Source: a virus
Reading direction: 5' to 3' (one strand)
IMG/VR virus record: IMGVR_UViG_3300025073_000039
Location: 25,433 to 89,432 of that record
DNA: 64,000 bases
This document shows, piece by piece, positions 1,323 through 62,522 of the stretch. The notes beneath the pieces are model-generated. The model did not search any database and was not told the DNA's origin. It saw nothing but the letters and a program-made list of their open reading frames with translations. Every line of letters starts with the position of its first letter. Position 1 is the stretch's first letter. Both the position numbers and the translations under genes were made by a program.

Positions 1323-1589
1323 ATGGTAGTTGTTAACACAAAACAAGATCTAAAGGAAATTGATAGCGCCTACGCACAAGCAGTGGCGCATTTTAAACCC
1401 GTGTTTGGCAACACGCGGCACATCCAAATTGTCGAGTCGCTCAACGAACTGGGTAAATTAGAAAGAGAGCATGCTAATAAGAAAAAACAAGCTGAGGGTA
1501 TCACGGCCTTAGAAAAGAAGATCGCCTTTCTCAAAAGCCAAATCACTTGGCTGAAGCAGGAAGACGATAAAAACTTATCCACAGCTTAG
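1323..1589 (+). CDS. Hypothetical coiled-coil protein, 88 aa
   Basis: Charged and heptad-rich from about residue 40 (ELGKLEREHANKKKQAEG, then LEKKIAFLKSQITWLKQE), suggesting a short coiled coil that oligomerises. It begins one base after the stop of the 128-aa gene and the downstream sigma70 promoter starts four bases after its stop, so it is the last gene of this transcription unit. No enzyme motif is present and the function is unknown. Confidence 0.65.
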   Translation: MVVVNTKQDLKEIDSAYAQAVAHFKPVFGNTRHIQIVESLNELGKLEREHANKKKQAEGITALEKKIAFLKSQITWLKQEDDKNLSTA

Positions 1590-1592
1590 CAC

Positions 1593-1621
1593 TTGACAAG
1601 TAAAGAAAAATGTGATATAAT
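1593..1621 (+). promoter_or_regulatory. Consensus sigma70 promoter with extended -10
   Basis: A perfect TTGACA at 1593-1598, a 17-bp spacer, and a perfect TATAAT at 1616-1621 preceded by TGTGA, an extended -10. It lies about 30 nt upstream of the ATG at 1652 and drives the recombination-gene block. It is the clearest plus-strand host-type promoter in the window. Confidence 0.88.
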
Positions 1622-42341: not shown

Positions 42342-43610
42342 CTAGGCGGTTACACCTTTCAATAAAGCGTGTTTCGGCGCTTGCATTCTTTGCAAACCAA
42401 CCTCAGACACGTATTGATCGATCTGACCGTCAACATCCGGGGCTTGTACGTTAGTCAACAGTCTGGTGTCGCGATTGTTCATGTAGCGATACTTGAGACA
42501 ATCCATATCCAGCAAGAAAGCTGAACCAGCGTAATCTTGTACAAACAACGGGTTGTGAACCAAGTTCACAGTGCCGAAAGCAGTGACATATTCACCGATT
42601 TGCATGCCGTAGCTCTTTTCGAGCGGGCGCATGCGGATTTGACCGCGCGCGAACTCGTTAATCGCTTGAAGCACTAAACCGCCGCAGAACAAAGTCTTGG
42701 TGCTGTTACCATAGGTAAAGCCTTCACGCAAGAAAGTGTTGAAATCAGGAGCGGTCAAAACACCGCCTTGATTCTGCACGTATGAATTACCACCTTCAAT
42801 GAACTCTAAGACACCGCCGGTAGCACGACGAGGATGACCCATAGTGCCAGAAGTGTCAGATTTCTTTTCACCAAACCAAAATGCTCTTTCGATATCCAAG
42901 CCGTGTTGAGTACCCATCTTAGCGCGGAGATAAGGGAGATCCTTAGCACCGTACAAGTTGGCCTCTTTTTCAGTGTTAGACACGGAAATCGTGGTCTTGA
43001 AAATCTGGCAATAGTTGGTTTCTTTCGCTGAGCGAGTAGTGTTTACATTACGAGCACCAGCGTTTTCTTCGTTCACATTGCCGACGATGAATAAGCCATC
43101 GCCATCAGCACCAGCGGCAGCGGCAGTCGTACCAAAGGCACGTCCACCAGAAGCAACGGTGATGGTAGTAGCAGAGGCAATAGTCGCTACTAACATGTTT
43201 TCACCGGTGCGCGCATTTTTAATTACGTCGCCGACAGTGAAAATGTAAGCTGAACTTGAGCCAGCTCCAGTCACGGTGATCGTCACAGCGCCAGTTGAGT
43301 AAGTACCACTTACTTTGGCGTAACGACCGCCCATGTAATCTTCGAGCCATCCGAACTCAGGATTGCCCGCCGCGGCTTTCATGATACCAGACCCAGTCCA
43401 AGCTTTACCATCGTAGACTTTGCCGACATTTGTCAACAAAGCAACTAAGGGATGCTTGTTAGGCTCCAACAACATGATTTTATCAGCCACGTCGAGAACT
43501 AGCCGTCCTTCAGCGCTAGATACCGCGGTAGTACGTGCGGCGTTGCCAGACGCTTGGGTGACTACGCCCTGATCGTGCGTAGGCTCTGTATAATACGGAA
43601 AGGTTGCCAT
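42342..43610 (-). CDS. Major capsid protein (HK97-fold type), 422 aa
   Basis: The N-terminal pattern GRLVLDVADKIMLLEPNKHPL and FGWLEDYMGGRYAKVSG is characteristic of a major-capsid group that includes SU10-like (DUF5309-type) phages. The size of 422 aa, the position between scaffold and decoration genes, and the Gly/Ala/Thr-rich insertion near residues 100-175 all fit. It should form the icosahedral shell. ATG in the context CTATG. Confidence 0.87.
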   Translation of the reverse strand: MATFPYYTEPTHDQGVVTQASGNAARTTAVSSAEGRLVLDVADKIMLLEPNKHPLVALLTNVGKVYDGKAWTGSGIMKAAAGNPEFGWLEDYMGGRYAKVSGTYSTGAVTITVTGAGSSSAYIFTVGDVIKNARTGENMLVATIASATTITVASGGRAFGTTAAAAGADGDGLFIVGNVNEENAGARNVNTTRSAKETNYCQIFKTTISVSNTEKEANLYGAKDLPYLRAKMGTQHGLDIERAFWFGEKKSDTSGTMGHPRRATGGVLEFIEGGNSYVQNQGGVLTAPDFNTFLREGFTYGNSTKTLFCGGLVLQAINEFARGQIRMRPLEKSYGMQIGEYVTAFGTVNLVHNPLFVQDYAGSAFLLDMDCLKYRYMNNRDTRLLTNVQAPDVDGQIDQYVSEVGLQRMQAPKHALLKGVTA

Positions 43611-43675
43611 AGAATTATTATTAATTAATTTCTACAGCTCACTAATTTGTTTTCAGTTAAATTGCAAAGAACGGA

Positions 43676-44473
43676 TTATAACATGTTCGGATTGCTTCGA
43701 GGCGCAATCAGCTCGTCCACCGCATTTTGGCCGACTTGCATCGAACCACCCTGTGAAGAACCACCGCCTGCGTTCAAAGCCATCTCTTTTCGCAATTCCG
43801 CGACCGCCGCTGCATCGCCTTCAGTTAAAGCTTTTTCCAAAGCCTTGCCCTTCACGGCGTAATAAGCGACTTCGATGTTAACTTGGTCCGGATTATCCGA
43901 AAGCCATTTGTTAACATCGTCAGCGTACTTCTCGAAATCTTTTGTATTCGCGATAAAATGCGCTGTTTTATCTTCGAAATTGCGCAATTCTTCACGTTCA
44001 TCGAACGTACGAGTCATTTCTTCTTTCATAGCAGCAGCCTTCTCTTCAACGAGTTTCGTGATGCTATCGATAGAAGTTGCGTCGTATTTTTTATCTCCCA
44101 TATCTTTTTTAACCTGATCGTGAGCTGCACTTACAATTGCCGCATCTTCGATTTTTACTTTGCCCTCAAGTGCGGCCTTTGCCAAACTGGTATCGACTTT
44201 GCCGTCTAGAATGGCTTTAATCAATTCCGGTTGAGCGTCAAGCTTTTCTAAGAGAGGCTCGACACTCTTAAAGAATGTCCGCAACTCTCCCAGCTCTTGA
44301 CCTTGAGAACCTAACTTCGTTTGCAACTCTTCATATTGGGTTTTAAAGTCACCCTGACTAGCACCGGTATTGTGGCCTGAGTCCCCTGCGTTAGCGCCTC
44401 CCGCAGGATCAGTGGTAGAACCTCCAGCACTCCCCGCTTGGCCAGCGGATGCCGGGAATAATTCATCTGCCAT
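43676..44473 (-). CDS. Scaffolding protein, 265 aa
   Basis: A Gly/Ser/Thr-rich first 40 residues, then acidic, almost purely helical sequence (about 45-230) with leucine heptads, no catalytic motif, and a short Gly/Ser-rich C-terminus ending in DELIAPRSNPNML. Composition, length and location one gene before the capsid protein are typical of a helical scaffold that guides prohead assembly. Confidence 0.76.
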   Translation of the reverse strand: MADELFPASAGQAGSAGGSTTDPAGGANAGDSGHNTGASQGDFKTQYEELQTKLGSQGQELGELRTFFKSVEPLLEKLDAQPELIKAILDGKVDTSLAKAALEGKVKIEDAAIVSAAHDQVKKDMGDKKYDATSIDSITKLVEEKAAAMKEEMTRTFDEREELRNFEDKTAHFIANTKDFEKYADDVNKWLSDNPDQVNIEVAYYAVKGKALEKALTEGDAAAVAELRKEMALNAGGGSSQGGSMQVGQNAVDELIAPRSNPNML

Positions 44474-45559: not shown

Positions 45560-45736
45560 TTATTTATGCATTTTACCAAGAGTCTTGGCGAGGATCTTTC
45601 TTCGTTTCATAAGCGAAGAGTCACCTTCTTTAACTGATAATTTTGAAGCAGGGATTTTTTTACTCTGCGGAATATTTAGCGCAGAATGCAACGCGCCCGG
45701 CTTCTTTATCGCTCCTGCGATCCAATTCTTTGCCAT
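45560..45736 (-). CDS. Small basic protein, 58 aa; first gene of promoter A unit
   Basis: MAKNWIAGAIKKPGALHSAL and a C-terminal MKRRKILAKTLGKMHK. The promoter at 45756-45785 lies about 20 nt upstream, so this gene starts a transcription unit covering the scaffold and capsid genes. Unrecognised. Confidence 0.62.
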   Translation of the reverse strand: MAKNWIAGAIKKPGALHSALNIPQSKKIPASKLSVKEGDSSLMKRRKILAKTLGKMHK

Positions 45737-45755: not shown

Positions 45756-45785
45756 ATCATAACACAAGTACGCATTTTAATCCAA
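45756..45785 (-). promoter_or_regulatory. Minus-strand promoter A with 12-nt spacer motif
   Basis: -35 TTGGAT (45780-45785), -10 TATGAT (45756-45761), 18-bp spacing. The spacer contains TGCGTACTTGTG (reverse complement of 45763-45774), shared with promoters B and C. Confidence 0.72.
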
Positions 45786-45787
45786 TT

Positions 45788-46096
45788 TTACACAGCGCCA
45801 CTATTTTTCTCGTTACGGTGTCTTTTTAATTCGGCGACGTATATACCAAGATCCATCAGACCCATTCGTGTGCCTTGGCTTCGTGCGGTCTCAGTAGGAT
45901 TCTTAAACGGGTCGATACTGAAAAGCGCCTGCTCGGCTAAACGCATCCGGTAAGCGTTATACTTCTGATAAGCTTCCCAGAATTTCGACTCAGACAGTTC
46001 TATTAAAAGCTGTTCCATCTCAGAATCTGTCATTTCGACGTCTTTCGCATCAAGAACTGGCTCATTTTGAGCCTTTTTAGTAGTTTTTTTCTTCAT
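45788..46096 (-). CDS. Hypothetical helical protein, 102 aa
   Basis: Unlike its neighbours it is acidic in the middle (DAKDVEMTDSEMEQLLIELSESKF), with a Lys-rich start. A helical body with an RMGLMDLGIYVAELKRHRNE end. Located just upstream of promoter A and co-transcribed with the portal unit. Unknown. Confidence 0.64.
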   Translation of the reverse strand: MKKKTTKKAQNEPVLDAKDVEMTDSEMEQLLIELSESKFWEAYQKYNAYRMRLAEQALFSIDPFKNPTETARSQGTRMGLMDLGIYVAELKRHRNEKNSGAV

Positions 46097-46114
46097 ATAT
46101 GTATATTAATTAGC

Positions 46115-46384
46115 TTAAATTAGCGGTTTCTTGGCTAACATTGGCTTTTTTAATGGTGCAACTGCCTTCTGGACAGTGTTCCCGACGCTTTTTAGCGCAG
46201 GAGACACCACTGGCTTAACTGGCTTAGCCAATTTACCAAACGCAGAGGCCTGATTCCGCACAGCCGCGGCCTTTTGTTGGCCTAATTGACCAGTCGGGTA
46301 GTACTTTATTGGCTTTTTAGGAGGCATTTTGTAAGCTGGCGGTTTAATTGGTTTTGGGCTGCCCCATATTGTGGCTTGATCCAT
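46115..46384 (-). CDS. Small Pro/Lys-rich protein, 89 aa
   Basis: MDQATIWGSPKPIKPPAYKMP, then repeated KP and VKP elements and an Ala/Lys segment. The strongly basic, proline-rich composition suggests a flexible DNA- or RNA-binding peptide. Unrecognised; it sits between portal and capsid genes. Confidence 0.6.
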   Translation of the reverse strand: MDQATIWGSPKPIKPPAYKMPPKKPIKYYPTGQLGQQKAAAVRNQASAFGKLAKPVKPVVSPALKSVGNTVQKAVAPLKKPMLAKKPLI

Positions 46385-46441
46385 ATATTTGTTTTTTATT
46401 AGTTAAAAGATTGTAGATAAGGCAAATCGACCGAAGTAGCC

Positions 46442-46573
46442 TTATTTTGCGCAATTCTTTACTAGTTTTTGCGCTATTTTACGCTTTTTCTTCTTTAAAC
46501 TACCTATTTGCACTACCATTCTGTTTTGGCTGTCCGCAGTAGTAACGGGGCCATTAAAATTTGGAGTGTCCAT
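46442..46573 (-). CDS. Small basic protein, 43 aa
   Basis: MDTPNFNGPVTTADSQNRMV followed by a KKKKRKIAQKLVKN tail. It starts 8 nt from the portal stop in the context ATATG. Very short, but its place in a close-packed series and its TATG start support it. Confidence 0.52.
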   Translation of the reverse strand: MDTPNFNGPVTTADSQNRMVVQIGSLKKKKRKIAQKLVKNCAK

Positions 46574-46580
46574 ATAATAT

Positions 46581-48701
46581 CTACTGTTGAATGTTGAAAG
46601 TTCTGTTGAGAAGCGCGCTTGTAGGGTTGCTATTCTGATTCACATTAATATTAGTATTTACCTTCCCTGTCCTGTTCATACCACGCGGATTACCCATTGG
46701 AGGCCTTAAAGCACCTCTCTGTTTTGTCGTGTCAGCGGCAGTCGGAGGGGCGCCAGCTTTTAAGAGGTTAATAGGTGCACCAGCTTCAGCAAATTGGCCC
46801 TGGCCGCCTTGTACGGCGACTTCCGGAGTTCCCATAAGGGACATAACCTGCTGTAGCACATCAGGGGGCACATTTCCGGGAGACAATCCCCCCACTTGGC
46901 CTTCCATGCCAGGAGGCATTTGGCCAGCCATTTCTGGCGGCATACCCTCAGCTCCAGGCATTCCTGGCTGAGCGCCTTCCATACCGGGCAGCATTCCCTC
47001 CATGCCAGGTTGTTGTTCTGAAGCGATAGATTCCAAATTCCAGTTCCAGTCGCGCAATACTTTGCTGACAAGTTTCTTTTGATCAACAAATGGCAAAGTG
47101 ACAAGCAGTTGGAATAAATCCATGTCCTGCTTTTTATTTATATCATTCTGACCAGCGATCGAAGGCAACACCGTAGCGCGGAAGTCAAATTCACCATTCA
47201 GATCGTCTTTCTCGATCAGTGGGTATTCCGTCATACCGTCATCACCAGTGATTCTGATTATCATCGATTTAGTCCAGAACTGCCTATACATCGAAATCCA
47301 ACAGCGCAACACATCAGCGAATCCGTCGCCTAAGTGGTTTACATATAAGCGCACGCGCTCAAGAGTAGACTCGCGCAAATGCCGAACCGCTGTAGCACTT
47401 TGACCAGCTGCACCAGCGCCCATAGAAAAGTCATCTACGCCGGAAGCATAACGCATATCACTCTTCAGCAATTCTTCTTCCTTATACGCACTCGCTTTAA
47501 TATCAGAAAATTCTATTTCGCGCACACCATTCGGATCAGTAGAATATACGATACCGAACGGTCTGGTGACTAATTCTTGTTTATTAATATTTGCAAGCGG
47601 ATTCACAATCCACATTTTGTGGATGTTCAAAGTCATCGCGTCAAGGCGTTGGTTCTTAACCATATTCAACATGATCTGGGGATTTTCTAAAATCATCGGC
47701 AGACCATACCCCTCAAATTCATGCGGAACTTTTAAATAAGGCACATCAAAAAACGGCGCTTCTTTAAAGTCATATGGGATGGGCATAAAACCACCCTTCA
47801 ATATCGGCACGTCATTTACCATAACAGCGTAAGCATCGTCATATGGCCTCCACCAACAGAACACTTCGTGCATCTTTAAATCAGGATCTGACTGTGTTTG
47901 GTAAATATCCCACGCCACCGCGCCACCCTGACGATAATCAGAACCCTTATTAATATAATTATGAGCCGTCTTAACTTCATTACGGATAGAACCGTAGTCA
48001 GTCAAATCAGCACCGCCATGAGCGAACGCCATTTCTAAACGTTTTTTATCATGCCCAGGGAAACGTCTTTTAATTTCCTGGCCAGTTAACACTTGCCGCT
48101 TAAACCAGAATTGCTTGCTTTCACGATTGATGTTGTGCCAGTCATACCACAGAGCATAGTTGTCAACCCACTCCAAAGTCGGAGCATCATAGAAAACTTG
48201 TTTTTTCTTTTCCCATTTCAATTTCTTTTTAGATAAATCTTTTACCGTCAAAAATTCATGCTCACGCACATCCTTCTTCCACCCGACTTCGAGAAACCCG
48301 CTGCCATAAACCAAAGACGACCGGACTAAATCTTCTACAACTTTATCAGCGCGAGCCTTTTCCCAAGTATAATCGCAAAGCGTTTGCACTTTTGGCGCGC
48401 GCAACTGGTCATCTTCGCTTCTGCCCTGGACGGCAAAATCAGGCCGCGCGTCTAAAATACGCGGCATTAAAGTTTCAACTACAGCCTGCACATACGGGAC
48501 AAAGATATTAGCTTGCCAGTTTTTAATTTCTTTCCCCCTATCCCCGTTATAGGCGATATAAAGTTTATAAGACCGATCGAGTCTCGGCTTGATACAGTTT
48601 AAAAAATAAAGTTTCGCGTCTTCTTTTTGGAGCAGAAACTTTGCCATCATTTTTTCTTCATCTTTTCCGAAGTGACTCGCTTGGTACATTAGCGTTGACA
48701 T
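46581..48701 (-). CDS. Portal protein (P22/podovirus-like), 706 aa
   Basis: Residues 1-130 carry the portal-type start (helices with MMAKFLLQKEDAKLYFLNC, then WQANIFVPYVQAVVETLMPRI and LDARPDFAVQG). Residues about 150-520 hold the clip and stem core with many Trp/Tyr pairs (TQSDPDLKMHEVFCWWRPYDD). From about 550 there is a Gly/Met/Pro-rich low-complexity stretch followed by an Asn/Gln-rich tail. It forms the dodecameric DNA channel between head and tail. The location just after the large terminase gene supports it. Confidence 0.88.
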   Translation of the reverse strand: MSTLMYQASHFGKDEEKMMAKFLLQKEDAKLYFLNCIKPRLDRSYKLYIAYNGDRGKEIKNWQANIFVPYVQAVVETLMPRILDARPDFAVQGRSEDDQLRAPKVQTLCDYTWEKARADKVVEDLVRSSLVYGSGFLEVGWKKDVREHEFLTVKDLSKKKLKWEKKKQVFYDAPTLEWVDNYALWYDWHNINRESKQFWFKRQVLTGQEIKRRFPGHDKKRLEMAFAHGGADLTDYGSIRNEVKTAHNYINKGSDYRQGGAVAWDIYQTQSDPDLKMHEVFCWWRPYDDAYAVMVNDVPILKGGFMPIPYDFKEAPFFDVPYLKVPHEFEGYGLPMILENPQIMLNMVKNQRLDAMTLNIHKMWIVNPLANINKQELVTRPFGIVYSTDPNGVREIEFSDIKASAYKEEELLKSDMRYASGVDDFSMGAGAAGQSATAVRHLRESTLERVRLYVNHLGDGFADVLRCWISMYRQFWTKSMIIRITGDDGMTEYPLIEKDDLNGEFDFRATVLPSIAGQNDINKKQDMDLFQLLVTLPFVDQKKLVSKVLRDWNWNLESIASEQQPGMEGMLPGMEGAQPGMPGAEGMPPEMAGQMPPGMEGQVGGLSPGNVPPDVLQQVMSLMGTPEVAVQGGQGQFAEAGAPINLLKAGAPPTAADTTKQRGALRPPMGNPRGMNRTGKVNTNINVNQNSNPTSALLNRTFNIQQ

Positions 48702-48714
48702 ATATTATATATAA

Positions 48715-50154
48715 TTAGTATGCTGTTGATTTTGGTAGATGTTCTGATTCATCAATCTGGTTTAATTTGCCCGTGTACAATATTTTAAACCCCTGGAACG
48801 CGATTCCAGCCGCGAAGATCGCGTCGTCATGATAACCATCTTGAGCGATCATATCATTATTAATGTTGTAAACGAAAGTTAACATTTCATCCAGTAAATC
48901 TTTGCTGTGTATTTTTAAAACTCCATCGCGCAACGCTTGCGCTAAATCATCTATTAAAATAATTCTGGTTAATTTAGTCGTTCGCCAACCGAGCTTGTCA
49001 GTGTAACTTACGCCAATCGTTTCAAACTTAGTCGGCCTGTAGTACAACGACGGATAAGATAATTGTTTTAAAACGGTTAGTGTGGTTAAGCCATGGTTGT
49101 TAACTTCAACTACCAACAGCGCGTTATTATAAATTTTTCCAAATTTACTGCAGAGTTCGGCTAATCTGTCAGGCGCAATCAGTCCGCGGTACATCGCAAC
49201 TTCTTCCCCGGTATTCCTGTCGAAAATTATTGCCACCGAATAGTCACCGCCTTGCACGCCTTCGGAAACGTCTACGCCCATCACGTATAAATGGTCTTTG
49301 TCAGGGTCGCTATAAATTATAAATCCCTCTTCCTCACGCACTTTTTTACCACTTGCTTCCGGATACTCGTCGCCGACATTCAGAAGATTCATTCTTTGCT
49401 TTCTAACAACATTGTAGTCAAAGACCGGGCGGCCAGACGAAAGAAACTCAAGGTTATACTCTTGCGCGAATCTAAGCGGATCGTTCATTCTACGCGCTAT
49501 TAAATCGACCTCTTCTCGTGAATATCCCCACCACCAGCCGTATTCTTTTTTAGTATAGCCATTATTTTTTGACGACCAGATTCGGTGGTATAAATTTGCG
49601 ACACCATTTGGTGTTGATTCCACGACGATAGTTCCCTTTTCGGCAGTCGCCTCAAGAGACGCCATCTTTTCTTCTGCTTTCTCCCAAAAAGCCAGCTCAG
49701 TACAAAGACAATAATTTAAAGTATACCCACGCCCTACGTTCTCAGTAGACGGCAGAACTATAATCTTAGAATCAATCTTCGGAAAACTGATTTCATGTTT
49801 TGAATTGTAATGAATTGTCGGCTTCAATTGGTCCGGAGTTGTGCGATAAAAAGTTTTAATTTTATCCAGCAACTCAGAAGTCAAGTCGCTGTTGTAGCCA
49901 ATCAAAGCCGTGTTCGTCCCCGGAGTGGTGATTGTTTTATGATAAAAATAACCAGCCACTGCGGTAGACATCCCAAGCTGACGTGATTTAAGAATTATAA
50001 TACGCTGGTCAGTGTTAAGCGAATTAAATAAATCTTTCTGCGCGTCATTTAAAATGAACGGTTGCAAACCCTTTTCTTTGGTCTTGATCTTACAAAAATT
50101 TTCAAGATAAAATTTTGGGTCCTTAATCTTGTCCAACAACTCAATATTATTCAT
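48715..50154 (-). CDS. terL: Terminase large subunit, 479 aa
   Basis: The start at 50154 (MNNIELLDK, TATATG) is preferred over a longer upstream frame. Motifs read in order: ATPase adenine region and Walker-A-like KSRQLGMST (near residue 55-63), Walker B CTELAFW (near 150-157), coupling motif VESTPNG (near 177-183), then the RNase H-like nuclease with GVDVSEGVQGGDYSVAIIFD (near 288-307), VVEVNNHG (near 342) and DDAIFAAGIA at the end. It packages DNA through the portal. It overlaps the small-subunit gene by 8 nt. Confidence 0.94.
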   Translation of the reverse strand: MNNIELLDKIKDPKFYLENFCKIKTKEKGLQPFILNDAQKDLFNSLNTDQRIIILKSRQLGMSTAVAGYFYHKTITTPGTNTALIGYNSDLTSELLDKIKTFYRTTPDQLKPTIHYNSKHEISFPKIDSKIIVLPSTENVGRGYTLNYCLCTELAFWEKAEEKMASLEATAEKGTIVVESTPNGVANLYHRIWSSKNNGYTKKEYGWWWGYSREEVDLIARRMNDPLRFAQEYNLEFLSSGRPVFDYNVVRKQRMNLLNVGDEYPEASGKKVREEEGFIIYSDPDKDHLYVMGVDVSEGVQGGDYSVAIIFDRNTGEEVAMYRGLIAPDRLAELCSKFGKIYNNALLVVEVNNHGLTTLTVLKQLSYPSLYYRPTKFETIGVSYTDKLGWRTTKLTRIILIDDLAQALRDGVLKIHSKDLLDEMLTFVYNINNDMIAQDGYHDDAIFAAGIAFQGFKILYTGKLNQIDESEHLPKSTAY

Positions 50155-50680
50155 ATATGGATTTCTCCATGTCCGCGTCCTCGGCTCGTTTCTTTTGCAC
50201 ATCATCCGGAATTTGCGGGACATTTACTTCATATAAAATTTTACCGTCAATGGCGTTTTGATTTTTAAGAGTCGGCGTAGCGTTTTCTTTTTCAGCAATT
50301 TTAAGCAACAACTCTTCCCAATTTTTACCATCATTTTCTGACGCTTCATACTTGTCCAAACCAATTGATTTCAACAGTATGGCGTACGCTTTTAACTTTA
50401 CGTCGTCTTTAACGGAGTGTAAGGTAATATCTTTTATACCGTTCACCAGTGTGTCCAAGCCCATACCATTGCGCGCCAGCGCTTCGTGGTACTCGCGCCT
50501 AATAGATAATTTATCAAGCGTCCGATACACCTCAGCGTCAGAATGAAACTTGGCCACCTTCTTCAGCTCGTTTATATCAGTGGTATAATTTAAAGCTTTA
50601 AGAAGCAGGTTCTGCTGGAACATCTGGCTCCGGTATTTTTTTGACGGACCGTTTATTATTGTGAGTGGTTTTAACTTCAT
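50147..50680 (-). CDS. Probable terminase small subunit, 177 aa
   Basis: A helical protein with a basic N-terminus, conserved-looking helices in the middle (EVYRTLDKLSIRREYHEALARN) and an acidic C-terminus (DDVQKKRAEDADMEKS). Position directly upstream of TerL with an 8-nt coding overlap, and size, both fit a small terminase subunit that recognises DNA. The ATG at 50680 (ATATATG) is inside the 3' end of the preceding gene. No HTH motif was read with certainty. Confidence 0.62.
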   Translation of the reverse strand: MKLKPLTIINGPSKKYRSQMFQQNLLLKALNYTTDINELKKVAKFHSDAEVYRTLDKLSIRREYHEALARNGMGLDTLVNGIKDITLHSVKDDVKLKAYAILLKSIGLDKYEASENDGKNWEELLLKIAEKENATPTLKNQNAIDGKILYEVNVPQIPDDVQKKRAEDADMEKSIYE

Positions 50681-51323
50681 ATATTTCTTCGTTTTTGATT
50701 ACTACCGGTAAATTACATACCCTCCGATACGCTTTACTGATCGTATATTTTTGGACACCTGTCTCTTCATTTTCGCAATTAATGTAATTAGAAACGTAAT
50801 TTACAAATTGCGGATAAGTCATCTTCATGGATTCACCGTAGGCGAGCAATTCGATTCTCTCATCCATCCACGCAACGAGTAGCACCCCTTCAAGCGTAAT
50901 ATACTCATAAGGGAACTTATAATCTTGCACAAACGGATCGCCAGTCGTTAATAAATCAGGGAACCAATCTTTTAAGTATGTGCCTATCGCCCAATTGCGC
51001 AAATCCTTGCTTATTAAATTACCAGACCTACCGACGTACCATTTCATAAAAGCACCATACACATGGTAGTCGCTCCCGCCTACCATTTTCTTACCACTGC
51101 TAATCGTCCCCTTTCTGCCTCTATATCTGAATTTATCTCTCAACCAATGAAATTTTACAATGGCTTCAAGACAATCATCAGAAAATTTCTTAATCACTCC
51201 GCGCATTCTGTTAACGTATTCGCCATATTCCATTGATTCGCCGCTTACCAGCTCAGGGTCGCACGCCCAATCCGCATATTTTTTGTCAAAGAGATCTGCA
51301 TATCGTTTTTTGTGAATCTTCAT
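50598..51323 (-). CDS. Hypothetical protein, 241 aa, upstream of terminase
   Basis: Soluble and helix-rich with many aromatic residues (DYHVYGAFMKWYVGRSG, EYITLEGVLLVAWMDERIELLAYG). Its C-terminus overlaps the next gene by 83 nt and is Lys/Pro/Ala-rich. No domain is recognised. Its position suggests a packaging or head-assembly accessory. Confidence 0.6.
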   Translation of the reverse strand: MKIHKKRYADLFDKKYADWACDPELVSGESMEYGEYVNRMRGVIKKFSDDCLEAIVKFHWLRDKFRYRGRKGTISSGKKMVGGSDYHVYGAFMKWYVGRSGNLISKDLRNWAIGTYLKDWFPDLLTTGDPFVQDYKFPYEYITLEGVLLVAWMDERIELLAYGESMKMTYPQFVNYVSNYINCENEETGVQKYTISKAYRRVCNLPVVIKNEEIYEVKTTHNNKRSVKKIPEPDVPAEPAS

Positions 51324-51342
51324 ATTTATTTTTCATATTCAT

Positions 51343-51942
51343 TTACTGTTGCGGAGGTCTCATCACTTCGCTGGCTAAATTATTAAACTTTCCCATTAGA
51401 CCCGGCGCAGTGCCGCCGCCACTAGGAGGCGCGACAGGTGGCACCATTCCCATAGTCGCAGGCGCGCCGCCAAGTTCAGGGCCTGGAGGAGGCAACTGGG
51501 CGCCAGTCGCGGCAGGCGCTTCGCCTTCCGGAGGTACGAAACCAGTAAGATTATTAAACGCGATTTCGAACACTTCGAATAAATCGGGATCAGTTTCAGA
51601 TAATTTTTCTAAGAACGCGCGCACTGATTCTGGATTTGCCGGATCAACACCAGCCTTCTTCATGATATCAAATAAGTCACGCAACAAACTGGAGCGTGCT
51701 TCATCAGTAATATTACTATCACTTATCTCTTTCGCTTTTAAGTTACTATTTTTGCTATTCAATTCAGCTGCCTTAGATTCTAAGTCAGCGACCATCTGCT
51801 CTTTGCTCATTGCGGAGGCTCCGCCTGGCATCGCCTCAACAGGGGGCATTTCACCGCCCATCTGGGCGGCAGGCATCGGTGGCTGAGCGCCACCATTCTC
51901 TGACACTATTCTACCAACGTTCTGCGGTAATTTCATCGCCAT
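51343..51942 (-). CDS. Hypothetical Pro/Ala/Gly-rich protein, 199 aa
   Basis: Three parts: a Pro/Gly/Met-rich N-terminus (about 1-50), a helical core (SNITDEARSSLLRDLFDIMKKA to DPDLFEVFEIAFNNLTG, about 70-130), and a Pro/Ala/Gly-rich C-terminus. Composition resembles minor head or assembly proteins. Follows the 1015-aa gene by 5 nt. Confidence 0.56.
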   Translation of the reverse strand: MAMKLPQNVGRIVSENGGAQPPMPAAQMGGEMPPVEAMPGGASAMSKEQMVADLESKAAELNSKNSNLKAKEISDSNITDEARSSLLRDLFDIMKKAGVDPANPESVRAFLEKLSETDPDLFEVFEIAFNNLTGFVPPEGEAPAATGAQLPPPGPELGGAPATMGMVPPVAPPSGGGTAPGLMGKFNNLASEVMRPPQQ

Positions 51943-51947
51943 ATATT

Positions 51948-54900
51948 TTATTGATTATATTTAATATTTAAAGGATATAAACCAATACCGGCATAAGCGC
52001 TTAAAATTGCGCGTTCAGTCGCGGTAACGCGTGACTCTTTTGTAGATTTACCAACTGGTGTTTTACCCTTAACAGCATAACCAACCTTTCTATACTTATA
52101 ACTTGGGATATAAGGAAGCGCCACCTCAGGCGTCACTAACCCCAAACCGGCGAGGTTCGCTGGAAAGACAGTTTCACCAAGACTACGCGCAAAGTATCCA
52201 GCTTTCTGAGCGATAGTGGCATCTTGTGGATATAGCGGCTGATCGAAAATACCGGTTGGGTTTGTGTCACGCAATAAAATCGGGACAATAAAATAATCCG
52301 TAACTAACTGCCCTTCAGGAGTTTTCAATAGCGGAATCGAATCGATTATCTTAACTATAGCACCACCGACTGTGTCTTCCGTGCGTCTCTCTGACGGTTC
52401 AAAGATATTCATCGTCATATGCGAAAAAAACGCGGCCATATTTATATACACAGGGCTATCTCTAAAAAACGGTATACTAACCATACCGTTCTCTTTCATC
52501 CAACTGTAGTATGGGGAATTCAAGGCATCTTTTTCAAGTGGGGAGCGACCGCCATTCAGTTCATTAATCAAGAATTGAGCTTTATTAAAAAATGCCGGGT
52601 TATAAAGCGCGGTCTGCCCGGTCTTCGCGAGCATAGCGTAAGCAAAACTCGCAAACGGCATACCGACAAGAGGCATCGAGCGCATTACCTTAACAGCAGT
52701 CGGCATAGCGGCGTAGTTCATATAGACGTCACTCGCTACATCAGCAGCTTTTAAACCGCTAAATTTCCAACGATCAGTCCCGGTATCATGAAAAACATCA
52801 ACACCGTACTGCACTGGATTAAATCTTTTTAATATCGTCAATTCTTTTTCAGTGATTCCATTTTTTACCAGATGCGCTGCCAAACCAAGTTTGTACGATT
52901 GGTCGGTAGCTTCGAAGAGGGACACCGGCTTATTAAAAACATAATCAAGCGCTTTGCCCCACAACTTCCCATCATCAGCTGCTTCTTTAGCGGCCGACAT
53001 CATGTCTTTCCAATAACTTGCAGACCCTAGTTCTTGCGAAATATAAGTAGTCTCAAGTTCATTACCAGAAATTATTCCACGCTTTTCTAAATTTAATAAA
53101 AGTTCTTTTTTAGCTTGTTCGCGCAAACTTTCAAGTTCAACAGTATTAAGTGTCGGCATCTCCATCTCACGCAAATATTTTGTCATTACTTCGTGGAATC
53201 CCGCCTGCGGATTAGTTAATAAATCAGGCCTGATTTTAAATACAGCATAAAACACGTCAGGATAAACTTCAGCCAATTCTTTAAACTCAGGGTGGTTCAT
53301 TAATTGCATCAAACTAACAGAAGTCTCGCCAGTGCCGAGGGCCTTAAGCGCAGCGCCAATACCGCTTTTCATTTCTCGCAAAAATCCAGGGTCAGCGATA
53401 TTGATACCGTACATGTTTGTCATCACCGCGTTGTTCAGCATCGCGAGCGCTGTAGAAGAAAGTTGACCGATTTTAGTCGTCTTAAACATGTCGATAAAAG
53501 CGCGGTACCCCTTCATGATTTGTTCGCCTTTTAATTTATCTTTTACAATCCACATTTGAGAAAATTTACGCGCCGCGTCATCAAACGCTTTCCACCCTGT
53601 TTCCGGTTGCGCAAAATCTTTTAATTCGCGCAGTATCGATCGCGCCTCTTCCATGGAAACGCCGGCGTCTTTTAATTCTTTAGCTCTTACCTTAATAGTC
53701 AAATCATCAAGGAATTCATTGGTTAAAAGATTTTTAAGTTGGTCATGGTCAAAGTTTTTAGCCTCAGAAGATAAACTCGTCATTAAATCACGCGCCTCGT
53801 CAAGAGTGTTCTCAGTACGCACCTTAGCGAATGTGCTTGGGCCCTTCATCATTGCTTCAAGTTCTTCTTTCGCCATGGCGAGTACATCTGTTTCAGTCGG
53901 CATAACACCAAAGCGGTCTCTCATCAAATCAGAAAGTTGTTGCGTCATTTCCTGCGGTGTTCCTTCGAGTCTATACGTATCACGGAGAGTGCCATCAGCG
54001 TCAGCCATAGTAGTCATAGTAGGGAATTTTGCTCTATCCTCTTTAACTATTTTCGATACCACACCTTTTTTCGCCTCGTGCCCCAACCACCCGCGCGCGC
54101 CACCGAGTTCTTGGTACTTAACAGCTTTTTCAGTGCGCTCAACTAAACGCTTAAAATAATCTTGCGGTGAATATTTAAAATATGAAGCAAATTTCCCGGC
54201 GAGTTCCGGGTTTGCGTCAGCCATCTTAGAAAAAACCATATCTGACGCGTTCTTAATTACGCCTGGGTCGCCTAAGAATTTCTCAGCCGTCCATCCAGTC
54301 GCAGCGCGGTACCCTTCTTTAGCTTCAGAAGCCGCGGTCTTTAAAGCCGAACGCGCTTGTACCACTTTAGGTATAGAAATAAAATCAGCGGGCTTTGTCA
54401 CCGCTTTTGCAAAATTTAATCCTGTCATTTTTAAAGCCGAAGTCAATCCTTCTACGCCGCCTTTGGTAGCACCAGTAAAAATTCGTGGAACGAGCGCTTG
54501 GCTTCCAAATGTCACCCAGTTTATTGGGTCAAGAGCAATATCGAGCGCAAGGCCACCCGCCAAAGCCGTAGGGCCGCTAGCCCCGTACTGTCTTAATAAA
54601 TCGCCAAAAGTACCACCCTCCTCCATATTGGCTTTTATGTTAGCCAACCCTTTCTTAGTCCCTTTGCCTAAAGCAGCCTCAACGCCGCCAACAATACCAT
54701 AAAGCGGTAGCCCTAAACCATGCAGTGCGCGATTAATAACCCCCTGTGGCTTTTTGCGTGGAGCCAATTCCTCTGCGCTTAAAACTTTTCCTTTATTCTT
54801 CGCCGCTTCGTCCTCATACCAGTTTTTCTGAATCTCTAAATCACGCGCACCAGTCTCTCGCGCCTTAATACGCGCTAACTGCTTACTCAAAGAGATATCA

Positions 54901-54995
54901 GAAGAAGACGGAGCTGTCCCAGTCCCGTAAGCAGTAGGCGAAGACTGTAATTTTTTCTCAATTTCTTTGCGCTGAGCCGAAAGAGTATCCGCCAT
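51948..54995 (-). CDS. Large presumed internal/ejected virion protein, 1015 aa
   Basis: First gene behind promoter B. The N-terminus is polar with coiled helices. Residues about 95-190 have an Ala/Gly-rich block (ALHGLGLPLYGIVGGVEAAL, GGLALDIALDPINWVTFG) like the polyvalent-protein-associated segments of large phage proteins, then long helices with EAR, AAK and ELK heptads. A later block (VYMNYAAMPTAVKVMRSMPL) is amphipathic. No catalytic site is seen. It probably is an inner-core or portal-associated protein ejected with the DNA. Confidence 0.56.
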   Translation of the reverse strand: MADTLSAQRKEIEKKLQSSPTAYGTGTAPSSSDISLSKQLARIKARETGARDLEIQKNWYEDEAAKNKGKVLSAEELAPRKKPQGVINRALHGLGLPLYGIVGGVEAALGKGTKKGLANIKANMEEGGTFGDLLRQYGASGPTALAGGLALDIALDPINWVTFGSQALVPRIFTGATKGGVEGLTSALKMTGLNFAKAVTKPADFISIPKVVQARSALKTAASEAKEGYRAATGWTAEKFLGDPGVIKNASDMVFSKMADANPELAGKFASYFKYSPQDYFKRLVERTEKAVKYQELGGARGWLGHEAKKGVVSKIVKEDRAKFPTMTTMADADGTLRDTYRLEGTPQEMTQQLSDLMRDRFGVMPTETDVLAMAKEELEAMMKGPSTFAKVRTENTLDEARDLMTSLSSEAKNFDHDQLKNLLTNEFLDDLTIKVRAKELKDAGVSMEEARSILRELKDFAQPETGWKAFDDAARKFSQMWIVKDKLKGEQIMKGYRAFIDMFKTTKIGQLSSTALAMLNNAVMTNMYGINIADPGFLREMKSGIGAALKALGTGETSVSLMQLMNHPEFKELAEVYPDVFYAVFKIRPDLLTNPQAGFHEVMTKYLREMEMPTLNTVELESLREQAKKELLLNLEKRGIISGNELETTYISQELGSASYWKDMMSAAKEAADDGKLWGKALDYVFNKPVSLFEATDQSYKLGLAAHLVKNGITEKELTILKRFNPVQYGVDVFHDTGTDRWKFSGLKAADVASDVYMNYAAMPTAVKVMRSMPLVGMPFASFAYAMLAKTGQTALYNPAFFNKAQFLINELNGGRSPLEKDALNSPYYSWMKENGMVSIPFFRDSPVYINMAAFFSHMTMNIFEPSERRTEDTVGGAIVKIIDSIPLLKTPEGQLVTDYFIVPILLRDTNPTGIFDQPLYPQDATIAQKAGYFARSLGETVFPANLAGLGLVTPEVALPYIPSYKYRKVGYAVKGKTPVGKSTKESRVTATERAILSAYAGIGLYPLNIKYNQ

Positions 54996-55022
54996 AATAA
55001 AAAATTAACATTTTATACTTAA

Positions 55023-55051
55023 AATATACCACAAGTACGCATTTCTATCAA
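55023..55051 (-). promoter_or_regulatory. Minus-strand promoter B with 12-nt spacer motif
   Basis: -35 TTGATA (55046-55051), 17-bp spacer, -10 TATATT (55023-55028). The spacer holds the reverse complement of 55030-55041 (TGCGTACTTGTG). The -10 lies about 28 nt from the ATG of the 1015-aa gene. Confidence 0.76.
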
Positions 55052-55108
55052 ATTTTTAAAGAAAAAATCTCAAAAATGAAAAAATTTATCACTTTTAAGT
55101 CAAAATCA

Positions 55109-55134
55109 ACAAAAAAAGAGCGAAATTCGCTCTT
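55109..55134 (-). terminator. Rho-independent terminator after HU-like gene
   Basis: Minus strand reads AAGAGCG, loop AATTT, CGCTCTT, then a run of T (55109-55117 as A on the plus strand). Stem 55116-55122/55128-55134. It isolates the HU-like unit from promoter B. Confidence 0.9.
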
Positions 55135-55138
55135 AATT

Positions 55139-55450
55139 TTACTTTTTTATCTGTTTTCCCTCGTTAAGATACAAAACTATCTTCCGACAAGGCGTAAAGC
55201 GCAACACTTTTTTCCCTTCCTTAACCATTCTTTCGCCAGTGTTAACGTTAATCCCAGGCCTATCGCCCAACTTCTTTATCTTAAACTCCCCTAAATCAGG
55301 CAGAACGGCAAGACCAAGGTTGCGCGCATCGCGGAAAAGCACAGTGACAATCGATCTGTAAATATTCTTAACCGTGGCGATCGAATTGACCCCAGCTTCA
55401 GCTCCAACTTTATAAAAAAACTCATCCCCCTGTTCTTTTGTGATCTTCAT
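55139..55450 (-). CDS. HU/IHF-like DNA-binding protein, 103 aa
   Basis: The HU family signature is readable: an N-terminal helix pair (KEQGDEFFYKVGAEAGVN), then VLPDLGEFKIKKL and the beta-arm motif RPGINVNTGE (about residues 60-84) ending with a basic RFTPCRK turn. Such proteins bend or compact DNA. It lies in its own small unit with a strong terminator and a 150-nt structured leader. It could help package or organise phage DNA. Confidence 0.88.
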   Translation of the reverse strand: MKITKEQGDEFFYKVGAEAGVNSIATVKNIYRSIVTVLFRDARNLGLAVLPDLGEFKIKKLGDRPGINVNTGERMVKEGKKVLRFTPCRKIVLYLNEGKQIKK

Positions 55451-55462
55451 ATATTTTAATTA

Positions 55463-55616
55463 CCCCTAGCGGGCGAGGAGTAATATAACGCTTAAAGGAA
55501 TATTTCCCATTCGGCGTTAGCGGCTTTCCTCGCCTCCGCTTACAATAGCGCATAGCGTAGATAACTAGTCCACTCCATGGTTATTCTAAAAGCGGTGATT
55601 CGCCGCCAGCTAGGGG
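55463..55616 (-). ncRNA. Structured leader RNA upstream of HU-like gene
   Basis: The ends pair through CCCCTAGC (55463-55470) and GCTAGGGG (55609-55616). Nested inside are GGCGAGGA/TCCTCGCC (55472-55479/55527-55534) and TAACGC/GCGTTA (55486-55491/55514-55519), with a further GC-rich stem near 55591-55605. This multi-helix fold runs from just after the 152-aa gene to the HU ATG. It may be a riboregulator, a processed leader or a small RNA. No known riboswitch class is recognised. Confidence 0.55.
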
Positions 55617-55638
55617 CGAATAATCTTACTTAACCAGT

Positions 55639-56097
55639 CTAAACAGCTTCGCCTTCACCTTCTGGTAGAGGTTCTTCAACAGCGCCTTCGCTTTGTTCAA
55701 CAACTGGTTCAGTTGGTTCAACAGCTCCGCCCATCTCTTCGCTACCTTCTGGCGCAAGAGCGACAGCGTCGGTGGCGTCAGGCGTGAGGCTTCCTGATTC
55801 AGAAGCTCCGGCAGCGTCGGAGGGGGAAAAATCCTCGTCCGGCGAAGGCAAGGTTTGTTCTTCTACGACCGGATCGATTTTCAACTCCATCTCTGGCACC
55901 AGCTCTACGTTGTCCTTAAACACCTCATCGGTTACTTCTTTTTCCAGAACCAAACCGTGGTCTAGTAGAGAGCCTAAAAAGCCCATACTTACTTGCCCAT
56001 TGTACTGGTCTAGTTCGTCTTTCGCCAGCTTAAACGCTTGCGCCGCAGTCAATTCCCCATTCTTAACGCGGTGCAACAAGCTTTGTTCCATGTCCAT
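55639..56097 (-). CDS. Acidic hypothetical protein, 152 aa
   Basis: First gene of the minus-strand block after promoter C. The N-terminal 60 residues are a small helical domain (QSLLHRVKNGELTAAQAFK and so on) and the rest is a Glu/Pro/Ala-rich disordered acidic tail (about 75-152). The shape recalls DNA-mimic or capsid-assembly accessory proteins, but no family is recognised. Confidence 0.62.
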   Translation of the reverse strand: MDMEQSLLHRVKNGELTAAQAFKLAKDELDQYNGQVSMGFLGSLLDHGLVLEKEVTDEVFKDNVELVPEMELKIDPVVEEQTLPSPDEDFSPSDAAGASESGSLTPDATDAVALAPEGSEEMGGAVEPTEPVVEQSEGAVEEPLPEGEGEAV

Positions 56098-56136
56098 ATT
56101 GTTTGATATCCCCCATTAGTCTGGGGTCATTGTTTA

Positions 56137-56165
56137 AGTTTGACACAAGTACGCACAAGCGTCAA
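56137..56165 (-). promoter_or_regulatory. Minus-strand promoter C with 12-nt spacer motif
   Basis: -35 TTGACG (56160-56165), the same 12-nt spacer motif (reverse complement of 56144-56155), weak -10 CAAACT (56137-56142). The motif starts one base from the -10 in all three sites, so its position is fixed. Confidence 0.65.
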
Positions 56166-59678: not shown

Positions 59679-61283
59679 ATGCATAAACCATTTCCGTTTA
59701 CGCTGGGGGCCGACCCAGAATTTAACGTTGTAATCAATAATCGGAAAGCCAACGCCCACACTTTAATCCAAGCTGTGCTATCAAAAGAATACAAAGCCAC
59801 CAGCATGGGCTTTGACATTAACGGTAAAGCCAATATCGGCTGGGACGGATGCGATTCCACCGGAGAAATTAGACCATCGCCCGCCAATACACCACACGAA
59901 ATCGTAGAGAATTTACGCGCAGCATTCCAAGCAGTGACAGCCAAAGTAGCCATCTTTGACTTTATCACTCACTCCAAACGCGCTCCAGTCGGTGGCCATA
60001 TCCACTTACTCTTAGCACAGGGTACAACTGACGCGAAACTCAGAACCATTCACAATTGCATGAGCGCATTTTATATGCCGCTCTTACTTTGTGAAGATAT
60101 CATCAACATGAAATTACGAGTTAAAGACTACGGATTACTCAGCGACTATCGCACTCAGAATGTCAGCCAAAATATCACCACATATGAATTCAGAGCACCA
60201 AGTGCTGAATGGCTGACAACGCCTAAAATCGCCGAAGCCACACTCGCTTACATGGGCACAATCTATCACGAAATATTAAAAAACGGCCCGGAGAAATTCG
60301 CTAAAGAATTTAAACATGTCGTCTGGAAAAATGGCAGTCAAGCCGACACCATGCAACAATTATTCTTAAACGAATTCACTTGCCCAATTGAGAGCATGCT
60401 CAAGACCATTACTAAAGCCGTGAAGAAATTTGAGTACTACAAAGAATATAAACAAGAAATAGATTATCTCTTACGCCCCAAGACCGTGCTCAAAGATAAA
60501 CACAACGCCAGTTTCAACATCATGACAGGATGGAAATTAAATCCGCGCCAGCCGAGTAAGAAAAATCTGCTCAACCAAAAAGCCACAAAGAAGAAAGCCG
60601 AAGACATCAACATGGATTTATTTTCTAAAGCCATCAGCCTCCAATTTAATGAGGATAAGAATGTCGCCTTATTTGCAGAGGATTTCAAAGACAAGATTAT
60701 CGCGCATGGCTGGAAATTAAAGAACGCTTATTATTTCTACGGGCTCAAAAAAGGGGTTGAGAAATATTTAGTGTTTAACAAATCCAACGAATGCTTCTAC
60801 CATGGCGGACAAATCCAAACCGTCGAAGACGCAGTGGCGATTTCTGAAGTAGTCAAACGCATGAGCCAGAGATTCGAACTCGAAGGCACCATTAACGCCA
60901 AAGACAAAAAAGAACAAGCTGATAGACACATCCTTGTCGGCATCCCATACCAAGTCCGAATCGATCAGGATTTCAAATCACTAGTCTCTCTAGTCTATGA
61001 CATCGAACACGGGACACTTAAACCGGCGCCGATCGAGCAAAAGAATTTAGTAATGCACGCCACAACAAGTGGAAAAAATAGAATTGCGACTCCAGTCGCT
61101 GATGCTTATAAAGGAAGTAGCCCGATGCCAATCGAAGCAGAAAGTGGCAACTCCGCGCTAAGATGTGAAATAGACACCAGAGATAGACTAGAAATGGATC
61201 ATGGCATACGGCTTGAAAGTCCAGGCATATTTATCGGGCCAAACACACCACTTCATATCCTACCCGGAGAAGCAGCATTTTAA
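59679..61283 (+). CDS. phiEco32-like COOH-NH2 ligase-type amidoligase, 534 aa
   Basis: FTLGADPEFNVVINNRKA at residues 5-22, DINGKANIGWDGCDSTGEIRP (about 48-68), GGHIHLLLAQG (about 108) and TTYEFRAPSAEWL (about 168) form the glutamine-synthetase-like fold expected of phiEco32-type amidoligases (COOH.NH2 ligase type 2), which join carboxyl and amino groups using ATP. The region from about 300 to 440 is additional. It is followed immediately by a class II glutamine amidotransferase, a pairing also known from phage amidoligase clusters. The product, a peptide tag or wall or nucleotide modification, is not known. Confidence 0.8.
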   Translation: MHKPFPFTLGADPEFNVVINNRKANAHTLIQAVLSKEYKATSMGFDINGKANIGWDGCDSTGEIRPSPANTPHEIVENLRAAFQAVTAKVAIFDFITHSKRAPVGGHIHLLLAQGTTDAKLRTIHNCMSAFYMPLLLCEDIINMKLRVKDYGLLSDYRTQNVSQNITTYEFRAPSAEWLTTPKIAEATLAYMGTIYHEILKNGPEKFAKEFKHVVWKNGSQADTMQQLFLNEFTCPIESMLKTITKAVKKFEYYKEYKQEIDYLLRPKTVLKDKHNASFNIMTGWKLNPRQPSKKNLLNQKATKKKAEDINMDLFSKAISLQFNEDKNVALFAEDFKDKIIAHGWKLKNAYYFYGLKKGVEKYLVFNKSNECFYHGGQIQTVEDAVAISEVVKRMSQRFELEGTINAKDKKEQADRHILVGIPYQVRIDQDFKSLVSLVYDIEHGTLKPAPIEQKNLVMHATTSGKNRIATPVADAYKGSSPMPIEAESGNSALRCEIDTRDRLEMDHGIRLESPGIFIGPNTPLHILPGEAAF

Positions 61284-61298
61284 TCTTAATCACTCATT

Positions 61299-62522
61299 AT
61301 GTGTGGAATTATAGCAGCATTCAACAACGAAAAACAACCCGTAAACGAGTGGGTGATTAATAAGTACGAAGATCAATTCAGCCGCGGGGATAAAGGTTTC
61401 GGCATCGTCACTATCGACAATAAAATGAAGATCAAAGTGATGAGAGCCACTGAACCAGCCAAAATGATGTTCGACATGCATTTGAATCCAGCGCCGATGA
61501 TCCTAATGCATCACCGCTGGCCAACATCATCCGCCAACACCATGGACCAAACTCACCCCATTCTCGTAAGCAACGGCTCACTCAAATTTGACTATCTCGT
61601 TATCCATAACGGCGTAGTTGGCAATGATGATGAGTTAAAAGAGGAACACGAAAAACTCGGCTTCTGTTACAACACCGCCTACAAAGAAGTAAGCGCGTAC
61701 AGTAAAATTGAAACCGATAAATTCAATGACAGCGAAGCATTAGCAATCGAAGTAGCACGCTTCATTGAAAACCAAACTGATAAAATCGGCGCAAGAGGAT
61801 CAGCCGCTTTTGTCGCTCTCCAAATTAAAAAAGACAAAAAGAATAAAGGTAAAGTTAATAAAGTGTTCTTCGGACGCAACGAAGGCAATCCTCTTATTCT
61901 TCAAGCATCAAACAAAAAGATTCTGTTATCAAGCGAAGGAAGTGGAGATGATATCAAAGCGTTCGAACTCTATTCATTTACGCCCGGCAAAACAAAATTC
62001 ACCAAACGTAAAATGACCTTCGCAACTTATCCGACTTACCCACTCGCGACAGTATACCCGACAACACCAAGCTGTGGTATAAGAACCAGTGACGAATTCG
62101 GGTTCTCTGCTAAAGACAAATGGAGCCACTCGCTCTCCGACAAATACGGAACAAAAGTAGAATCCAAATATCCAGACGCAGCCATTGAAGCTGATATGCA
62201 AAGTGAATATATAGACGAAGAAGTAGATTTAGAAATGGCCATAGAAGAATTCTCAGAAAATGTCGACCACTTAGTAGAAGAGTACAAAGATTCACTGCGC
62301 GAGACATTCATCACTGGCGCATACGACAGTGAGTTCACGATTAAATCAATCGCCGCTTTTATGCAGTCAGTCGAAGCCAAGGTCGATAAAATAAAACTCA
62401 ACATGGTAATAGAATCAGAAAACGACTATGAAACAGGTTTACCCCACAAAACAGCAAATTCTCTCCTCCCCAATGCGGTTTCCACGACAGTTGCTGAATT
62501 TGGTCCAGGAATGGAAGACTAA
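61299..62522 (+). CDS. Class II glutamine amidotransferase, 407 aa
   Basis: Starts MCGIIAAFN so that Cys2 becomes the N-terminal nucleophile after Met removal. DKGFGIV (residues about 31-37), MHHRWPTSSANTMDQTHP (about 67-84) and VIHNGVV (about 101-107) are the PurF-type class II signatures. It would hydrolyse glutamine and pass ammonia to a partner, here most likely the adjacent amidoligase. The C-terminal 110 residues are acidic and helical and overlap the next gene by 95 nt. Confidence 0.88.
   Translation: MCGIIAAFNNEKQPVNEWVINKYEDQFSRGDKGFGIVTIDNKMKIKVMRATEPAKMMFDMHLNPAPMILMHHRWPTSSANTMDQTHPILVSNGSLKFDYLVIHNGVVGNDDELKEEHEKLGFCYNTAYKEVSAYSKIETDKFNDSEALAIEVARFIENQTDKIGARGSAAFVALQIKKDKKNKGKVNKVFFGRNEGNPLILQASNKKILLSSEGSGDDIKAFELYSFTPGKTKFTKRKMTFATYPTYPLATVYPTTPSCGIRTSDEFGFSAKDKWSHSLSDKYGTKVESKYPDAAIEADMQSEYIDEEVDLEMAIEEFSENVDHLVEEYKDSLRETFITGAYDSEFTIKSIAAFMQSVEAKVDKIKLNMVIESENDYETGLPHKTANSLLPNAVSTTVAEFGPGMED

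Follow-up and report, generated by a model that had tools for sequence, protein, structure and literature searches.

The 12-nt motif TGCGTACTTGTG probably (a probability of about 0.6) represents the core of a distinct class of virion-gene (late) promoters in a clade of uncultured tailed phages, with a phage-determined factor that would act in the promoter spacer. What is seen directly is the element with its fixed placement and orientation; it is conserved at virion operons in synteny and contrasts with early-type promoters carrying TTGACA. The element seems to stand in for the -35 box, and so to separate late from early genes.

Motif copies and their promoters

The 64-kb window corresponds to bases 25433-89432 of the 89,432-base uncultured virus record G000. 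Across the whole 89,432-base contig, the minus strand, which is the virion strand, carries three exact copies of TGCGTACTTGTG (45763-45774, 55030-55041, and 56144-56155), with no further exact or one-mismatch copy in either the window or the contig. Each copy occupies positions -25 to -14 of its promoter and lies 1 nt from the -10, with TGTGn directly before the -10 at all three sites. The -10 hexamers are TATGAT (45756-45761), TATATT (55023-55028), and CAAACT (56137-56142), all deviating from TATAAT, and the -35-like hexamers TTGGAT (45780-45785), TTGATA (55046-55051), and TTGACG (56160-56165) are separated from the motif by 5, 4, and 4 nt, respectively. The preliminary description had reported three copies in one orientation, 1 nt from the -10 and 4-5 nt from the -35; its coordinates and spacings were all confirmed, and the motif proved not to be scattered at many random positions in the genome.

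The virion genes occupy the minus strand between about 56.6 and 8.1 kb. Promoter 1 (45756-45785, minus), with its TTGGAT-like -35, begins directly after a conserved 102-aa gene that follows the portal (45788-46096, minus; homologues in relatives at 37-47% identity), which served as the synteny anchor. It precedes a run of small ORFs, the first encoding 58 aa (45560-45736, minus), followed by a gene in the scaffold position (43676-44473) and the major head protein gene (42342-43610; phrog_1328, E 6e-42), together spanning 42342-44473 on the minus strand. Promoter 2 (55023-55051, minus) precedes a 1015-aa gene (51948-54995, minus) with homologues in all compared relatives, and then the packaging block, in which PHROGs identified the terminase (48715-50223) and the portal (46581-48701); the same promoter type lies before the homologous gene in the relatives G005, G008, and G389. 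Promoter 3 (56137-56165, minus), with the weak -10 CAAACT, precedes a 152-aa gene (55639-56097) and an HU-like DNA-binding protein gene (55139-55450; PF00216, E 2e-7), spanning 55139-56097 on the minus strand. Downstream of the HU-like gene and ahead of promoter 2, a terminator scan placed an intrinsic-terminator-like hairpin with a T-run (55116-55134, minus).

A fourth, diverged copy, CACGTACTTATGATATAGT, lies on the plus strand outside the window, before a gene for a 101-aa DUF5659-like protein (Pfam match just below the cut-off). In G005 and G008, the DUF5659 homologues are likewise preceded by this type of promoter, and the element therefore goes with the gene and not with the strand.

Two other features of the window were recorded. 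At 59679-62522, a gene for a phiEco32-like COOH.NH2 ligase (PF14395) lies beside a gene that weakly matches glutamine amidotransferases, an arrangement kept in relatives, and a 2261-aa gene at 21177-27962, with tail-fibre-like matches, is internally repetitive, with many long direct DNA repeats.

The expected count of the TGCGTACTTGTG word in the contig is 0.008. Since order-2 simulated contigs each contain 2-22 12-mers of mid GC with at least three copies (both strands counted), the triple is weak by itself, and the case is therefore built on position and comparison, not on repetition. Such simulated triples are what chance repetition would produce, and duplication of a single promoter could likewise be imagined; both are refuted by the comparison below, in which the promoters are conserved in synteny among diverged relatives whose flanks do not align, leaving this explanation highly improbable.

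The same promoter in related phages

Relatives found by the head protein share 71-80% identity, and a terminase profile recovered about 43 contigs at ≥50% identity, all from uncultured phages; the phage collection searched held no close isolate of the clade. In the relatives, a promoter of this kind is found at two corresponding places: behind the 102-aa gene following the portal, and ahead of the 1015-aa gene block that lies upstream of the terminase. In the gap corresponding to promoter 1, after the 102-aa homologue, they have promoters such as GTTACTTGTGCTATAAT, GGGACTTATGCTATAAT, and GTAACTTGTGTTATAAT. The part shared across the clade is ACTTRTGnTATAAT, with ACT often led by G's and GGGACT a frequent form. 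The -10 in relatives is TATAAT, nothing is strongly conserved at -30 except A-richness, and the late promoters mostly read ACTTA rather than ACTTG. The TGCG part of TGCGTACTTGTG is particular to G000, and the part conserved elsewhere is ACT (-20 to -18) and its G-rich lead. The earlier proposal that sequence beyond the extended -10 is present is thus upheld in one respect, in that the extra part marks virion-gene promoters clade-wide and in synteny, and needs revision in another, in that the conserved extra part is ACT and not the whole of TGCGTACT.

Perfect matches to ACTTNTGNTATAAT in the relatives' loci number 30 on the virion strand versus 0 on the other strand, a figure that includes overlapping or near-identical contigs, so that independent cases are fewer. 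Nearly all of them fall at two syntenic places, one following the 102-aa gene and the other preceding the 1015-aa/199-aa block. When ACT was not required, the gap after the 102-aa gene contained TRTGnTATAAT with at most one mismatch in 18 of 18 non-redundant relatives; the preceding triplet was ACT in 14, ATT in 3, and TTT in 1. These 18 syntenic gaps and the 37 sites described below are the two unbiased tests; other position counts for the late class come from promoters selected by the motif itself.

In G389, GGACT is shifted one base toward the -10 at 5 sites, which suggests that the element is separable. ACT is absent from the same promoters in some clade members (G390/L221 and L072), so the element is specific to certain lineages of the clade.

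A public-virome scan for TTG-N7-TGCGTACTTGTG returned 42 loci, none in the clade except remote helicase matches, and the hits were put down to chance. A corresponding scan for GTACTTGTGnTATAAT returned 99 loci, including one clade member, L134. A literature search on this motif class found nothing relevant.

The relatives also display unusual gene structures. The major head protein gene lies in separate pieces, as if split by introns, in G008 (72106-75227) and G390 (71273-75074), and the G390 terminase has 924 aa versus about 500, as if it contained an intein. The relative G002 has 26 tRNA genes, a near-complete set, mostly in one array (L068 5115-7890, L069 638-709), and none were seen in G000 outside the window.

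Two promoter classes

All TRTGnTATAAT sites of nine phage records (n=37) were gathered irrespective of positions -20 to -18. ACT is present in 22 and absent from 15. A TTGACA-like -35 accompanies 3 of the 22 ACT sites versus 11 of the 15 sites without ACT (Fisher p = 4e-4); the two features tend to exclude each other.

Early-type (class E) promoters carry TTGACA inside a CACTTGACAAGTG palindrome over the -35, lack ACT, often have the DnaA-box-like TTATCCACA upstream, and precede RecA and other non-virion genes. The contrasting example in the window (1572-1621, plus) comprises ACTTATCCACAGC, CACTTGACAAGT (the palindrome over the -35, at 1593), and TGTGATATAAT. This plus-strand promoter had been described as having only the TGTG part, which agrees with the TTGACA-N17-TATAAT arrangement seen there, with TGTG and without ACT. 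Four more copies of the CACTTGACAAGTG palindrome promoter occur in G000, and others in G005, G008, G389, and G390; this promoter type is conserved throughout the clade. The palindrome resembles an operator or a control site linked to replication. Of 17 late-type (class L) sites, 16 are intergenic, as are 24 of 26 palindromes, although coding sequence takes up 87% of these genomes. The ACTTG shared by the late motif and the half-site of the early palindrome was considered as a possible link and dropped, most relatives having ACTTA at late promoters.

The element could also be a repressor operator that keeps late promoters off early in infection, since it lies, by its sequence, at a position from which a bound protein would obstruct polymerase. 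Its asymmetry, single orientation, almost fixed spacing, and loss of the -35 fit positive control instead, and the palindrome belongs to the early class, making repression quite unlikely. On these grounds, an activator is favoured over a repressor. Of the initial suggestion of an activator or repressor site coordinating virion genes, the mark on virion promoters is retained, the activator is favoured, and the repressor is disfavoured.

Host and bacterial control

The relative L072 was found in a metagenome bin of roughly 0.5 Mb, whose phylum has genomes of 0.4-2.0 Mb. From this one bin, Patescibacteria are a tentative candidate for the host phylum; terminase searches for a host, covering 380 and 61 genomes, returned the known bin only. 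TRTGnTATAAT is abundant in some genomes of the bin's phylum, with 189, 152, and 147 sites versus 5, 4, and 7 in the control. In the candidate-phylum genomes G296, G118, and G166, with about 150-190 sites per genome of roughly 0.7 Mb, it is apparently a main promoter type.

ACT precedes TRTGnTATAAT at 11 of 218 sites in three small-genome bacteria versus 22 of 37 in phages (p = 3e-14), the 218 sites being from the parts read of three genomes from the phylum of the MAG that holds the relative phage; as these genomes were picked for having ACT matches, the bacterial figure is biased upward. The commonest triplets at the bacterial sites are AAA and TTT, with ACT at 3-6%. This scarcity speaks against ACT being common to TRTGnTATAAT promoters at large, provided that the tentative host assignment is right.

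These counts bear on the explanation that the host's own preference is involved, with an unusual main sigma or polymerase core reading spacer positions -20 to -18 at extended -10 promoters that lack a -35, and no phage factor. The element abuts the extended -10 and accompanies the absence of the -35; some candidate-phylum genomes have real-looking ACTTRTGnTATAAT promoters with no clear -35; and ACT is mildly over-represented in G296 (8 of 131 sites versus about 3 expected from base frequencies). Against it stand the bacterial preference for AAA and TTT, the one-base shift in G389, which is ill-suited to a rigid sigma contact, and a review's statement that no specific polymerase contacts are known upstream of -15 in the spacer, save the -17/-16 TRTG effects (PMC2613000). 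On balance, the host-based explanation is rather unlikely.

Search for a regulator

Gene-content comparison and Pfam scans revealed no DNA-binding protein present in the phages that use ACT (G000, G005, G008, and G389) and absent from the non-user G390; the two groups were told apart only by a HAD-like phosphatase and a 160-aa protein of unknown function. The DUF5659 gene has its own class L promoter in G000, G005, G008, and G389 (in the shifted form in the last), and its product was considered as the regulator and rejected, being also present in the non-user; its predicted structure was of unusable quality (pLDDT 53.5). Another idea, a crAss-like virion polymerase, was likewise rejected, the giant proteins scanned yielding no polymerase match and no convincing catalytic motif.

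Proposed mechanism and significance

The general promoter form would be (G-rich)-ACT-TRTGn-TATAAT. Host RNA polymerase carrying the main sigma factor would read TRTGnTATAAT as an extended -10, and a phage-determined factor beside the polymerase would read ACT in the spacer (-20 to -18, and one base closer in one lineage), replacing the missing contact between sigma region 4 and the -35. Late promoters would then fire only after the factor is made. G000 has the longer form CGTACTTRTG and weak -10s, as would be expected for factor-dependent promoters. We infer the timing of transcription, the activator, and its identity. A more specific proposal, which we offer tentatively, is a phage-encoded factor of a new kind that reads ACT immediately upstream of the extended -10, tolerates a one-base shift, replaces the contact between sigma region 4 and the -35, and switches on all virion operons in a widespread clade, possibly with candidate-phyla hosts.

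The element provides a sequence-level handle on early and late control in a large uncultured phage group (at least 40 contigs). It could reveal virion operons in fragments of these phages, is testable by reporters and, given a host, would lead to its regulator.

Comparison with known systems

Phage-encoded sigma factors, such as T4 gp55 and those of SPO1, define a separate late promoter class in which the -10 itself is altered. The putative late promoters described here resemble such systems in forming a separate class, but the relatives retain the host-type TATAAT, and no sigma-like protein was matched among the proteins scanned.

TRTGnTATAAT is identical to the extended -10 consensus of Gram-positive and other bacteria, in which TRTG spans -17 to -14 (PMC2613000). 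Unlike those promoters, the clade has a conserved ACT at -20 to -18 and a G-rich lead, both outside that consensus, with ACT at 14 of 18 syntenic promoters.

The sites of lambdoid Q/21Q and AlpA (QBE and ABE) lie in the promoter spacer (PMC6606751, PMC9371919), and the asymmetric element in the spacer between the -10 and the -35 of a late promoter resembles them, as does the AlpA site GGGACG the clade form GGGACT (PMC9371919). By extension, a phage protein bound to the spacer element might load onto paused polymerase and permit read-through of the late region of roughly 40 kb, a long unidirectional gene block served by very few late promoters. However, QBE and ABE need a downstream -10-like pause sequence and act on termination, and neither feature was found here: the initial transcribed region shows no enrichment of a -10-like pause element (no offset has TANNNT in more than 5 of 38), and terminators within the late block show no strong excess. 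No Q- or AlpA-like protein was found among the proteins scanned, the Q families being very divergent. Antitermination of this type is therefore an unlikely explanation, a little less so than repression.

T4 middle promoters combine a MotA box with a -10 and are served by sigma appropriation through AsiA and MotA (PMC2988021). As at those promoters, a phage element would replace the -35 and the host -10 is kept, often with TGn, and the element is short, tolerant, and at a near-fixed distance from the -10 (PMC2988021). In contrast, the MotA box (WWWTGCTTTA) has its centre at -30, 12 bp away from the -10, whereas ACT lies at -20 to -18 with its centre near -19, and MotA serves middle genes, whereas the promoters here precede late genes. 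MotA and AsiA families gave no match in Pfam and PHROGs scans covering part of the ORFs. ACT next to an extended -10 without a -35 matches none of the site types compared (MotA, Q, and AlpA) and is best explained, by analogy, as the contact of an activator beside sigma, as MotA is at T4 middle promoters.
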